The notes under the pieces are model-generated. The model had not been told where the DNA came from, did not search any database, and saw nothing but the letters and a program-made list of their open reading frames with translations. 47,691 nt of DNA from positions 1 to 47,691 of the forward strand of contig JAUVEU010000016.1 in NCBI GenBank assembly GCA_030594645.1. Direction: 5' to 3'. Made by a program: the position numbers and the translations under genes. The DNA comes from Candidatus Aegiribacteria sp. Its GTDB lineage: Bacteria; Fermentibacterota; Fermentibacteria; Fermentibacterales; JCC-6. Below are positions 22,811-26,848 of this stretch, piece after piece (within the stretch, counting starts at the first letter, position 1; each line of letters opens with the position of its first letter).

Positions 22811-24925
22811 ATGGACTGGCTGATTCGCAAGCGTGACGGCAAAATAATCAATTTCAGCAAACTGAAGATTGAGAAAGCAGTTGAACGCACATTAAAAGCA
22901 TCATCAACAGAATCTGATTCTTCCGAGATCACGGATCAGGTTGAGGCTGCTTTGTATATGAATTTCTTCAAAACCGGTTCAATCCCTACGGTTGAGCAGA
23001 TACAGGATTTCATTGAAGAAACGTTTGTGCTTCGCAAACTTACTTCCGCTGCACGTGCGTTCATTCTTTACAGAGAAAAGAAGAGTGAAGCCAGAGATGT
23101 TGATCATCTTCTGAGCGGAATGGCAGGAGCTGTTTCAGACTATATCGGCAGAGATGACTGGAGAGTCAAAGAAAATTCTAATATGAATTACTCCCTCCAG
23201 GGTTTAAATTTCTATCTCTCATCTTCAATCACAAGGAGATACTGGCTCAGCAGAATCTATACGCCCAGAATTCGCGAATTCCAGGAGAACGGTGATTTTC
23301 ATATACATGATCTGGGAATACTGGGACCGTATTGTGTCGGCTGGGATCTCCTGACACTGTTAAAAGAAGGATTCAGGGGAGCAAGGGGAAAAACTGAATC
23401 AAAACCGCCTGCTCATCTCAGAACAGCACTCGGGCAGATCGTCAATTACTTTTATACACTCCAGGGAGAAGCCGCCGGGGCGCAGGCCTTCTCAAATTTC
23501 GATACGCTTCTTGCACCATTCATAAGGTTTGATAATCTGGATTACACCCAGGTCAAACAGTCCTTTCAGGAATTCCTTTTCAATGTAAATATTCCAACAA
23601 GAGTTGGGTTCCAGGCTCCATTCACGAACATCACTATGGATCTGAAACCATCGGAGACTCTCCGCGAACAGAATGTAATCATTGGCGGTGAAGAAAAAGA
23701 CGCGGTGTATGGTGACTTCCAGGCGGAAATGAACACGATAAACCACGCTTTCGCTGAACTTATGATGGAAGGTGACTCGAAGGGAAGAATCTTTACTTTC
23801 CCGATACCCACTTACAATCTGACAAAGGATTTCAACTGGGATGATGAAAACCTCAAACCTATGTGGGAAATGACCGGAAAATATGGTGTTCCATACTTCA
23901 GCAATTTTGTAAATTCGGATATGAACCCTGATGATGCCAGGAGCATGTGCTGCAGGCTACGCCTTGACAATAGAGAGCTTCGAAGCAGAGGGGGCGGATT
24001 GTTCGGTTCAAATCCTCTGACAGGCTCAATTGGTGTTGTTACGATAAACCTCCCGAAGATCGGGTATACATCAGCAGATGAAGAAGAATTCTTTGACCGT
24101 CTTTCATCCGTAATGGAAGCTGCCAGAGAATCACTTGAACTCAAGCGTGATCTGATTGAAAAACTCACGGATAGAGGTCTTTATCCATATACAAGCCACT
24201 ATCTGCGCAGCATCAGACATGCGCAGGGAAAATACTGGAGCAATCACTTCTCAACCATCGGACTTATCGGAATGAACGAAAGCTGCATGAATTTCCTCGG
24301 AATGAGTATAGCTACAGAAGAAGGACGATTGTGGGCACTTTCAATTCTTGAATTCATGAGAGATAAACTATCGGAGTTTCAGGAGGAAACAGGCAATCTG
24401 TACAATCTTGAGGCATCTCCCGCTGAAGGTGCCTCCTACAGCCTGGCCAGAAAAGATATGAAGGAATTTCCTGACGCGTATTTCATGGGCAGTTCAGACC
24501 CTTATTACACTAACTCCGTTCACCTGCCCGTAACAGAGCAGATGGATGTCTACTCTCTGCTTGAACATCAGGATCCTCTCCAGACGATGTTTACAGGAGG
24601 AACCGTTGTTCATATCTTCATAGGTGAAGCTATTACAGACTGGAAAATGGTCAGGAAACTGGCAAAATCAATTGTAACGAAATTTCATCTGCCGTATTTC
24701 AGCTTCACTCCTACATTTTCCATCTGTCCGGTTCATGGCTATATTGCTGGAGAGCATTTCCTCTGTCCGTATCCACATACCAAGGAGGAACTTGCTGAAT
24801 TCGGAGAAATCGTAGATACAGAAGAGCATCTGCCTGAAGGCAGCTATAATGAAGTTGATGAGAATACATCTGAGGAACAGGGAAGTCTGTTTCTCAACAT
24901 CGGAAAGGTTAAAATAAATGCCTGA
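22811..24925 (+). CDS. nrdD: Anaerobic (class III) ribonucleoside-triphosphate reductase catalytic chain, lacking the glycyl-radical segment
   Basis: A 704-residue protein that reduces ribonucleotides under anoxic conditions. An ATP-cone allosteric domain occupies residues 1-95 (WLIRKRDGKIINFSK). The barrel has GPYCVGWDLLTLL and the thiyl-forming cysteine in RSMCCRLRLD (about residue 380), and FTGGTVVHIF near 595. The zinc-region remnants CPVHGYIAGEHFLCPYPHT start near 638, with His where many relatives have the second Cys of each pair. The chain then runs through an acidic linker and stops at GKVKINA, before the RVxGY glycyl-radical motif present in all functional NrdD. That motif is on the next reading frame (24918-25088), which overlaps by 8 bases in the +1 frame. 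Confidence 0.93.
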   Translation: MDWLIRKRDGKIINFSKLKIEKAVERTLKASSTESDSSEITDQVEAALYMNFFKTGSIPTVEQIQDFIEETFVLRKLTSAARAFILYREKKSEARDVDHLLSGMAGAVSDYIGRDDWRVKENSNMNYSLQGLNFYLSSSITRRYWLSRIYTPRIREFQENGDFHIHDLGILGPYCVGWDLLTLLKEGFRGARGKTESKPPAHLRTALGQIVNYFYTLQGEAAGAQAFSNFDTLLAPFIRFDNLDYTQVKQSFQEFLFNVNIPTRVGFQAPFTNITMDLKPSETLREQNVIIGGEEKDAVYGDFQAEMNTINHAFAELMMEGDSKGRIFTFPIPTYNLTKDFNWDDENLKPMWEMTGKYGVPYFSNFVNSDMNPDDARSMCCRLRLDNRELRSRGGGLFGSNPLTGSIGVVTINLPKIGYTSADEEEFFDRLSSVMEAARESLELKRDLIEKLTDRGLYPYTSHYLRSIRHAQGKYWSNHFSTIGLIGMNESCMNFLGMSIATEEGRLWALSILEFMRDKLSEFQEETGNLYNLEASPAEGASYSLARKDMKEFPDAYFMGSSDPYYTNSVHLPVTEQMDVYSLLEHQDPLQTMFTGGTVVHIFIGEAITDWKMVRKLAKSIVTKFHLPYFSFTPTFSICPVHGYIAGEHFLCPYPHTKEELAEFGEIVDTEEHLPEGSYNEVDENTSEEQGSLFLNIGKVKINA
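24904..24917 (+). promoter_or_regulatory. Ribosome binding site for the separate glycyl-radical frame
   Basis: AAAGG (24904-24908), extended as GGAAAGGT, lies 9 bases before ATG 24918, inside the end of nrdD. The triplet just before that ATG is TAA in its own frame. This favours independent or coupled initiation rather than frameshifting. Confidence 0.55.
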
Positions 24926-25088
24926 AACCAACGGGAAAATCCGGATAAATGCAATCAGAACAGAAGTATATTCAAGAATTGTGGGTTATTACAGACCTGT
25001 CCAGAACTGGAATCGAGGAAAAAGGGAAGAATTTTCTCAGCGTAAGTATGTTACTCTTACAAAATCAGAACAAAAGGCTACTAATTGA
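24918..25088 (+). CDS. Standalone glycyl-radical polypeptide of class III ribonucleotide reductase
   Basis: A 56-residue frame, ATG at 24918 to TGA at 25088. Its centre, TEVYSRIVGYYRPVQNWN, is the C-terminal glycyl-radical loop of NrdD; Gly23 in IVGYY would carry the radical generated by NrdG. It continues RGKREEFSQRKY, the usual end of NrdD. The opening GKIRINA (residues 6-12) is a near copy of GKVKINA, the last seven residues of the upstream nrdD frame, as if a short stretch had been duplicated at the split. It has no cysteine. The ATG overlaps the nrdD stop by 8 bases (ATGCCTGA) and its own stop overlaps the nrdG start. It resembles in concept the GrcA/YfiD spare radical subunit of pyruvate formate-lyase. 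A fusion by recoding or a one-base assembly error remains possible. Confidence 0.8.
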   Translation: MPETNGKIRINAIRTEVYSRIVGYYRPVQNWNRGKREEFSQRKYVTLTKSEQKATN

Positions 25089-25780
25089 TTAGATCCCTCA
25101 CTGGGACCAGCCTGATAGAGTATCCAGGAAAGATAGCATCCATCATTTTTATAAGCGGATGTAATCTTCATTGCCCATTCTGCCATAATCCTGAGCTGGT
25201 CAGACCAGATATGCTCGAAAATGAATTCGACCTTTCACATGAAACAGTGTTGAAAGAACTCACTAAGCGAGAAGGTTTCATTGAAGCCGTTTGCATAACA
25301 GGCGGTGAACCATTGATATACAGTCGTCTTTCCGAGCTGATCGAAAGTATCAGAAAATATACATCTCTGTTTATCAAACTTGACACAAACGGAACCAGAC
25401 CAAATGAACTTGAAAACATTCTTGAGTATATCGATTACATAGCCATGGACCTTAAAAGCTCTCCGTCTAAATATCCGAAGGCAACCGGTGAAAAAGCAGT
25501 ATTTGCCGATGTAAGCAAGTCAATTGATATTATAAAATCTGTGCCGGAGTATGAGTTCAGGACAACTATGGTTCCAGGCATTGTCGATGGAGACGATGTG
25601 ATAGAACTACTGAGAGAAATCGGTCCAGTGAAAAAATACGTACTTCAGGGCTTCCATTCTTTCAAAACACTATCTGCGGATTTCACAGGTCTTCCCTCTT
25701 ACCCGAAAGGTTATCTGGAAAAAGTCGCAGAGGATATCAAGAGTCTGGCACTCGCGGAAAGTGTCACCATCAGGACATAG
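25085..25780 (+). CDS. nrdG: Anaerobic ribonucleoside-triphosphate reductase activating protein (radical SAM)
   Basis: A 231-residue radical SAM enzyme. The cluster motif is Cys26-x3-Cys30-x2-Cys33 in SGCNLHCPFCHN, followed by the TGGEP loop (CITGGEPLIY) and a K/N-rich barrel strand (KLDTNGTRP). It uses S-adenosylmethionine to abstract hydrogen from the glycine of the reductase. The start is TTG at 25085, overlapping the stop of the glycyl-radical frame by 4 bases (TTGA), so nrdD, the radical polypeptide and nrdG form one coupled operon. It belongs to the longer form also seen as pyruvate formate-lyase-type activases of the NrdG2 kind. The stop TAG is followed at once by an inverted repeat of the RAYT element. 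Confidence 0.92.
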   Translation: MIRSLTGTSLIEYPGKIASIIFISGCNLHCPFCHNPELVRPDMLENEFDLSHETVLKELTKREGFIEAVCITGGEPLIYSRLSELIESIRKYTSLFIKLDTNGTRPNELENILEYIDYIAMDLKSSPSKYPKATGEKAVFADVSKSIDIIKSVPEYEFRTTMVPGIVDGDDVIELLREIGPVKKYVLQGFHSFKTLSADFTGLPSYPKGYLEKVAEDIKSLALAESVTIRT

Positions 25781-26848
25781 GGGTCAAATCTTTCCTCTTG
25801 ATATTTGAATCAACTGATCACTTAATTTATCGAATCTTCTCTTCAATTGTAGATCATTCCCCAACATGACTTGTAATCTTTTCCTTGAGTTGCTAACTGT
25901 ACTATAATCTATTCCTGCCAGCAGTTTACCTATTTCAGGTTGGGTTATTCGACAGAAACGGTACAGAAATTCCATCAGCATTGATCTTTCCACAGATCTT
26001 ATACCACGCTGACAAATATCGCACCTGCGCTTACTGATCAGACATGCAAAATTATCGATCAGTTCATCTGGCTCGAATATTTTTCTTAATTCCCTCAGGG
26101 CAGGTTTCTCTCTTTCAAATACTTCCTTACTCAGAAATCTTTCTTTAACCTGTTGAATAAAGTCTGCTTCTCCCACGATCCCAATCCCTTTACCTGATTC
26201 AAGAGGATTTTCTGTATCCTGATCAATACCCAGTTCTATGAATTTTCGATACCCCTGCCTGCCACTGCGATTATCTCCACCCATAAAATCCAGCACAGTA
26301 CTGTAATTAACGAAGTCTCTTCTTTTCCCCACTGAGAAATACCCCAATAAACTGCTGGCTTTGTACTTGAGGAGTATACTAATTCTATCATCAATTGATT
26401 TCTCGGCATAAGATTTAATCCGAATAGGATTCAGATGAATATAACGGGATACCTTTAGAAGATAATTATCAGAATCTATCAGAAATGCCTTGTACCTTCC
26501 CTGGTAAAGATGTCCCACCCGGCTATGTCTGTGATTGAAAACAGAAGTGTAAGAAATATTAAAATGACGCATGAATTCAGACAGGTTTCCATCCGGAGTG
26601 GTTGCCAGTAAATGGAAATGGTTTGGCATACATACATATGCTAGAAGAGATACATTATAGATTTCCAGGGAGAGTAAAAGTTTTTCCAGAAAAGCTCTTT
26701 GATCCTGTGCATCTGTGAATATCACCTTTTTTTCGTTCCCACGGCAGGTGACATGATAATAAGCACCAGGATACTGGATTCTTAAAGGTCTAGTCATGCT
26801 TAAATAGTATTAAATTGATGCTATTTGTCAAGAGGAAAGATTTGACCC
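25781..26848. mobile_element. RAYT-type element bounded by perfect 20-bp inverted repeats
   Basis: GGGTCAAATCTTTCCTCTTG (25781-25800) and its exact reverse complement (26829-26848) frame a single Y1 transposase gene. The left repeat begins right after the nrdG stop codon. The right repeat forms the last codons and the stop of the MobB-like gene (26828-27433). Within the left end, TCAAAT (25784-25789) and ATTTGA (25803-25808) can also pair, as in REP hairpins. Exact identity of both arms suggests recent arrival or continuing homogenisation. Confidence 0.7.
25784..26797 (-). CDS. REP-associated tyrosine transposase (Y1_Tnp, IS200-like) with C-terminal DnaA-like domain
   Basis: A 337-residue single-strand DNA transposase. 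The N-terminus MTRPLRIQYPGAYYHVTCRGNE and the HUH motif in PNHFHLL (about residues 60-65) are diagnostic, and GHLYQGRYKAFLID and YLLKVSRYIHLNPIR carry the conserved Arg and the catalytic Tyr region. The last 90 residues (RGIRSVERSM to TVSNSRKRL) look like a DnaA domain-IV helix-turn-helix, a common RAYT extension. These enzymes cut and move REP palindromes rather than themselves, usually as single chromosomal copies. It lies between perfect inverted repeats. The gene appears intact. The promoter is unclear; the ATG at 26797 is followed by no overlap. Confidence 0.9.
   Translation of the reverse strand: MTRPLRIQYPGAYYHVTCRGNEKKVIFTDAQDQRAFLEKLLLSLEIYNVSLLAYVCMPNHFHLLATTPDGNLSEFMRHFNISYTSVFNHRHSRVGHLYQGRYKAFLIDSDNYLLKVSRYIHLNPIRIKSYAEKSIDDRISILLKYKASSLLGYFSVGKRRDFVNYSTVLDFMGGDNRSGRQGYRKFIELGIDQDTENPLESGKGIGIVGEADFIQQVKERFLSKEVFEREKPALRELRKIFEPDELIDNFACLISKRRCDICQRGIRSVERSMLMEFLYRFCRITQPEIGKLLAGIDYSTVSNSRKRLQVMLGNDLQLKRRFDKLSDQLIQISRGKI

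Follow-up and report, generated by a model that had tools for sequence, protein, structure and literature searches.

The window analysed here is the whole stretch of 47,691 nucleotides of contig JAUVEU010000016.1 from Candidatus Aegiribacteria sp. (GCA_030594645.1). It encodes a class III ribonucleotide reductase (RNR) in which the catalytic chain, NrdD, and the glycyl radical loop are found in two different open reading frames (ORFs), followed by the gene of the activase NrdG. In the usual account of class III RNR, a single chain carries its own radical glycine. The nrdD core gene (22811-24925, plus strand, as for all features of this locus) encodes 704 residues with an ATP-cone, a 10-stranded barrel, a finger loop and a partial zinc ribbon, without the radical glycine, and its chain matches PF03477 (5-92), PF13597 (1-531 of 562) and NF006126. 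When compared with 30 fused NrdDs (alignment A3), Cys175, the finger loop MCCR (Met379, Cys380, Cys381 and Arg382) and Glu490 are invariant. The match of class II RNR models to this chain is confined to the ATP-cone region, and its sequence is not that of a class II NrdJ. Its C-terminus reads ...SLFLNIGKVKINA.

The second gene (24918-25088) encodes a glycyl radical subunit of 56 residues, which contains SRIVGYYRPVQNWN and the radical motif RIVGYYRPVQNWN. In Pfam, considering E-values up to 1, PF13597 is its sole match (533-560 of 562, E 5e-9), and no radical domain of the pyruvate formate-lyase (PFL) type is found. The two chains therefore have complementary matches, covering adjoining parts of one Pfam model, and the radical glycine loop RVxGY, which is absent from the NrdD chain, is present on the separate chain. 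The predicted radical glycine, Gly23 (codon 24984-24986), corresponds to Gly725 of a joined model chain, which is invariant in alignment A3, and Arg20, Gly23, Tyr24, Pro27, Asn32, Lys35, Glu38 and Arg42 are invariant in 22 split radical chains. The small ORF is in the +1 frame relative to nrdD, with which it shares 8 bases at the nrdD stop; before ATG 24918 its frame is closed by a TAA (24915-24917), and an AAAGG Shine-Dalgarno (SD)-like site (24904-24908) is located 9 nt upstream of this ATG. The nrdG gene (25085-25780) encodes a radical S-adenosylmethionine activase of the NrdG2 type (TIGR02495, 181 bits versus a cut-off of 131); it has a TTG start and overlaps the stop of the 56-residue gene by 4 nt.

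The window comes from a draft genome of 158 contigs, and an assembly error or a pseudogene, by which one fused gene is broken by an indel or by decay, has to be considered. In a further genome of the phylum (G035, L042), nrdD is found in four pieces with the small radical ORF intact, due to decay or sequencing error in that draft. However, in the phylum concerned, Candidatus Fermentibacterota (with Aegiribacteria and Sabulitectum as named members), all 31 searched genomes that are at least 80% complete, among them that of the window, have the split, such that NrdD ends at profile position 526-543 and a separate match covers about 533-560; among these, the NrdD of G036 and G023 is partial on its contig, and the second match of G031 is drawn out across a stop. 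All these relatives would have to share one error. The split described previously for the window is hereby confirmed, and the situation in which the relatives all have the fused gene is not encountered in this phylum. The junction, as read in 41 loci, differs between the genera, and a separate radical ORF is also present in 23 further families, and in isolate records such as those of Paracoccus ferrooxidans and Thermodesulfatator autotrophicus. Moreover, the ratio of nonsynonymous to synonymous polymorphism (pN/pS) of the small gene is 0.068 within the genus (34 codons, 18 sequences), as against about 2 when either of the other frames is read; for nrdD it is 0.118 over 100 codons (16 of the 18 sequences, as two lacked the anchor). 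A broken gene is exceedingly improbable in the light of these data.

The small gene has its own start signals. An SD match of at least 4 nt precedes it in 41 of the 41 phylum loci, and one of at least 5 nt in 38 of them, as compared with 48% and 14.5%, respectively, of the 1337 control ATGs inside nrdD. When the base after the nrdD stop is counted as 1, the small ATG is at position -13 (1 locus), -7 (22), -3 (14), 0 (2), +2 (1) or +3 (1). The Lys codon under the SD site is AAG in all 33 loci that have [GED]KV there, which are related loci rather than 33 independent events, with the nrdD Lys codons overall being 649 AAG and 634 AAA. Together with the conservation and the selection, these start signals indicate that each piece is translated independently and has been conserved.

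A programmed ribosomal frameshift or stop bypass, generating one fused protein from the two frames, would be in agreement with the 8-base frame overlap in the genus and with the conserved ATGxxTGA context of the stop. Such a mechanism calls for one frame relation; it is rejected because the phylum has two (+1 in 24 loci, +2 in 17) and the other lineages have all three, evenly distributed (16/17/16) over 49 split loci, some of which are near relatives. The spacing between the two genes is 10-150 nt in many of these 49 loci, in one archaeal genome (G401) the core and the radical gene are on different contigs, and the SD matches before the small ATG also argue against one fused product, making this explanation very improbable. 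The separate start at ATG 24918 with its AAAGG site, as proposed in the preliminary description, is supported by the start signals and the variable frame relations in the 41 loci. This is a real, conserved two-chain class III RNR.

In the window's own genome (3.07 Mb, 94% complete), one NrdD is found, ending without the glycine, as well as one glycyl radical small chain, and a fused NrdD is not found in this draft. The small chain therefore appears to be obligatory there, as had been claimed, and this is also in agreement with the split in all the phylum genomes. An alternative is that the small chain, like GrcA/YfiD, serves as a spare part with which NrdD is repaired after cleavage by oxygen, without being an obligatory subunit. 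This role fits two genomes discussed below (G400 and G404), where a lone chain coexists with a complete one-chain enzyme, and also the lone viral chains. In the window, however, NrdD lacks a radical glycine and a fused copy is not found in the genome, so that the chain cannot be merely spare, and this alternative is very unlikely for the window.

The NrdD zinc ribbon has four ligands, CxxH/C...CxxC. The zinc ribbon remnant of the window (CPVHGYIAGEHFLCPYPH, 24725-24778) keeps three ligand positions in alignment A3, and at the position of the fourth ligand cysteine, CPxC in fused NrdDs, it reads CPYPH, of which the histidine could serve as a zinc ligand. The preliminary description, which had NrdD stopping after the zinc region cysteines, is therefore right as to the position, but one of these cysteines is replaced. 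The own-phylum loci have PYPH, PFPH or (in L032) PYRH here. In most of the fused relatives of A3, EVYSRVVGYYRP comes a few residues at most after CPxC; in the split relatives, the ribbon stays with the core and the small chain begins before EVYSR. The style of the break in the window (CPYPH, an acidic tail and an LFLNI-like end) is shared by similar ends in L106, L143 and L147, and an LFL/LFV-type tail motif is present in the Fermentibacterota genera that were read. The C-terminal tail of the window NrdD, SLFLNIGKV (24884-24910), whose DNA also contains the SD site of the next gene, is a candidate docking strand. In a second style, found in Elusimicrobiota, Spirochaetota, L050, L052-L055 and L057, short helical segments occur on both sides of the break, perhaps forming a coiled-coil clamp; the heptad statistics of the matched helices are suggestive only (p 0.008 to 0.45, for the helical-looking loci of the 24 tested, with one tail not read). 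In Spirochaetota and in G160, the radical chain is extended by a glutaredoxin/thioredoxin-like domain (L129, L162 and L057 by match; L164 and L137 by eye only), an arrangement that may keep a reductant attached to the radical chain. Separately, a distant NrdD (L048, G051) is apparently divided elsewhere, within the catalytic part, as judged by eye.

It had also been proposed that a strand is duplicated at the junction, GKVKINA at the end of NrdD and GKIRINA in the small chain. This likeness is not conserved. It is seen in the window (5 of 7 residues identical) and in its 97%-identical relative L003 (4 of 7), and the other 39 of the 41 loci have at most 3 identical residues. In favor of the proposal, shuffling within the window alone gives at least 5 identities in 0.15% of cases, such that the likeness is unusual there, but it is not kept in the relatives.

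The assembled chain was modelled with AlphaFold2 as one joined proxy chain (NrdD plus radical piece), using an alignment with the 30 fused relatives. The mean predicted local distance difference test score (pLDDT) is 84.6; the residues 711-750 of the radical piece form a block with pLDDT 83-90, and the NrdD tail (residues 673-703) is below 50, which places the break in a disordered link. The best 36 Protein Data Bank (PDB) matches of this model are class III RNRs. A separate NrdD radical piece was not found in the PDB sequences, where the two weak matches are both one-chain NrdDs.

The reading preferred here, to which we assign a probability of roughly 0.87, is that this is a class III RNR with a divided catalytic chain, consisting of the 704-residue NrdD and a separately translated 56-residue chain that carries the radical loop and the C-terminal tail. 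Ribosomes that terminate at the nrdD stop would resume translation at the overlapping ATG, or initiate there anew, and would do so again at nrdG, such that NrdD, the small chain and NrdG would be made together. The small chain would insert its radical loop into the NrdD barrel, NrdG would act on the assembled complex, abstracting the hydrogen atom of Gly23, and the radical would then move to the cysteine of the thiyl radical finger loop, as happens in one-chain NrdD. Oxygen cuts glycyl radical enzymes at the glycine, as reported for NrdD in the accessible part of PMC3019208, and the loss under oxygen would therefore be limited to a cheaply replaced chain of 6 kDa. The proposal builds on the observed gene anatomy, conservation, start signals, purifying selection and distribution; we infer that the complex is formed, that the radical acts in trans and that there is an advantage under oxygen.

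Several points weigh against this reading. The model was obtained with a joined single chain, and naturally fused relatives are in its alignment, so that the docking is partly built into it. Choosing the ATG with the best SD match somewhat inflates the SD count, and loci from a single phylum do not count as independent. Most of the relatives are metagenome-assembled genomes, but the isolate or complete records L100, L116, L170 and L173 are also split. Finally, class III is not the sole RNR of the window's genome, as it also encodes a class II NrdJ (NF006417, 1146 bits). It could be, then, that NrdJ does the work and that the class III system is a relic whose split reflects neutral drift, and PF02867 is indeed present in 54 of the 60 genomes searched for it. 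The purifying selection on both genes, the phylum-wide conservation and the intact nrdG speak against a relic, as does G037, a 95% complete draft with a split NrdD and no PF02867 match, and we regard this possibility as quite improbable.

The two-chain architecture had been treated as a local case; this falls short, as it recurs in many lineages. A survey covered 385 genomes, 29 from the own phylum and the others drawn from further families, with a few genomes per family; 168 of them match PF13597 and 143 match the small-chain model A1. When considering strong matches (E below 1e-14; weak matches, with E above 1e-9, were left out) outside the phylum, 77 genomes are obtained, of which 33 (23 families) have the match in an open frame of less than 200 residues, 42 (30 families) in one of at least 600 residues and 2 in an intermediate one, and among these genomes no family contains both a separate and a fused radical piece. 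An ORF of this length might instead represent a lone chain in a genome with a fused NrdD; in 32 of the 33 the core ends early or crosses a stop, the rows of G329 not being listed. For the 28 candidates examined outside the phylum, the radical ORF was located downstream by script in 21 (in L068 several hundred bases away). The other seven are L055, L061, L072, L073 and L077, for which a radical chain is found in the same genome (in the last three by weak matches), L051, which has a second PF13597 match whose place is not listed, and L056, which ends at a contig edge.

The best 80 named loci are a set in which the window's own type is favored. Of these, 44 have the radical motif in a separate small ORF and 36 have it within the NrdD ORF; in these counts L094, whose contig is that of the split genome G037, is taken as split, and L149 was assigned by reading. 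The 44 include lone chains beside a fused NrdD (L148 and L168), second chains in split genomes (L111 and L156) and five loci without a core on the stretch examined (L105, L112, L117, L166 and L167). Split NrdDs are found in Fermentibacterota, Thermodesulfobacteriota, WOR-3/Caldifarciminota, Elusimicrobiota, Spirochaetota and some archaea (G401 and G402). In the isolate record of Paracoccus ferrooxidans, the genes for NrdD, a 60-residue 'hypothetical protein' and NrdG are consecutive, and the isolate record of Thermodesulfatator autotrophicus (L100) has a split NrdD. A tree of 106 NrdD cores (54 split, 46 fused and 6 unlabelled) contains 13 changes between split and fused, 10 of them forced by starred branches; it was made by a quick method (LG+G4) with long-branch warnings, leaving out 11 sequences without the cut motif, fragments below 450 residues, near-copies of the own phylum and one duplicate, with L174 assigned as fused by hand. 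The fused L153/L160 and L154 are nested in split clades; their zinc end still reads CPKPH or CPLEH and they have a linker, which is what re-fusion would be expected to leave behind. Taken together, the sequences indicate that split NrdD is a recurrent architecture. Several genomes have two or three separate radical chains: G077 (L065, L295, L296), G362 (L062, L297), G058 (L041, L298), G402 and G403.

Radical chains also occur outside such gene pairs. In the Methanophagales genome G400, a fused NrdD is accompanied by a lone radical chain of 115 residues (L148/L287), G404 has the same combination, and G403 and G402 have a split NrdD and a second radical chain. ANMV-1, a virus of anaerobic methanotrophic (ANME) archaea, encodes a lone radical chain (L172:3680-4114) that is 50% identical to that of G400, and both bear extra CxxC pairs; the viral chain is named nrdD in the part of its paper that is available (PMC4372165), and an NrdD core was not found in the 38-kb ANMV-1 record. 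These chains are a possible NrdD spare part. When considering the best 80 of 551 IMG/VR matches, 50 are lone and another 4 are either lone or cut off by an edge, 13 are fused and 3 split, and 10 are without the motif used by the script; the viral radical pieces (among L176-L254, for example L207, L217 and L224) often have 41-70 residues. An NrdD core was not found in any of 32 whole virus records (26-72 kb), picked by length from the 50 lone loci and including some near-copies, and only a C-terminal part of the profile was matched, twice in two of them; none of these records is rated 90% complete, such that they may be fragments, with a core elsewhere in single cases. The lone viral genes are preceded by an SD match of at least 4 nt in 47 of 50 cases and of at least 5 nt in 33 (best start chosen, no control). 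In a PHROGs scan of 8 neighbours in two of the virus loci, no viral hallmark gene was found, the matches being to a reverse transcriptase (L224) and to a family without known function (L217).

From these observations a wider proposal can be put forward, tentatively and at somewhat less than even odds. A detachable, replaceable class III radical subunit would exist across much of anaerobic life: obligatory in the split enzymes, having arisen or been re-fused at least 10 times, spare beside the fused enzymes in some hosts, and lone in many viruses, which would install it in the host NrdD core to sustain DNA precursors after oxygen damage. It would then be the NrdD counterpart of YfiD and Y06I.

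The window enzyme shares with the known class III NrdD/NrdG systems (phage T4, Thermotoga maritima, P. copri) the fold, the ATP-cone, the finger loop cysteines, the activase gene and the radical loop sequence; it differs in having the radical glycine on its own chain, PYPH in place of the last zinc cysteine, and the SLFLNIGKV tail. The PFL spare parts GrcA/YfiD of Escherichia coli and Y06I of phage T4 are likewise small autonomous radical loop chains that serve a large enzyme in trans (PMC8683613), as is proposed for the window chain. They serve PFL, a complete enzyme, whereas the window chain is of the NrdD type (PF13597) and its large chain is without its own glycine; the lone Methanophagales and viral chains are closer to these spare parts than the window chain is. 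The class II enzyme NrdJa/NrdJb of Pseudomonas aeruginosa is also an RNR made as two genes of one operon, both of which are needed (PMC4520616), but its radical is obtained from adenosylcobalamin rather than from the glycine of a small chain. In phages, nrdD also occurs in pieces (PMC3653736); these breaks are due to introns or inteins, or are unexplained, in single phages, and a conserved separate radical subunit is not described in the accessible portion of that paper.

In the text available from Crona et al. 2015 (PMC4520616), the split NrdJ is named as the sole RNR found to be split in an organism other than a virus, and in that of Andorfer et al. 2021 (PMC8683613), YfiD and Y06I are the only validated spare parts, although others may exist. 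No description of a separate NrdD radical chain was found in the openly accessible text of the PMC literature, subscription papers being outside the search. Apparently, the second chain was overlooked because it is so small. RNR phylogenies, as far as described in the available part of PMC9531940, filter by length (400-1100 residues), such that the small chains are invisible to them, and at least one, that of P. ferrooxidans, is the 'hypothetical protein' mentioned above. A radical subunit acting in trans would make the radical loop exchangeable, and docking, NrdG activation and oxygen repair would be accessible by mixing the pieces. The question posed in the accessible text of Andorfer et al., whether spare parts exist beyond PFL among the glycyl radical enzymes, now has concrete candidates.

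Directly downstream of nrdG, and convergent with it, is an ORF on the minus strand (25784-26797), which we take to resemble a REP-associated tyrosine transposase.
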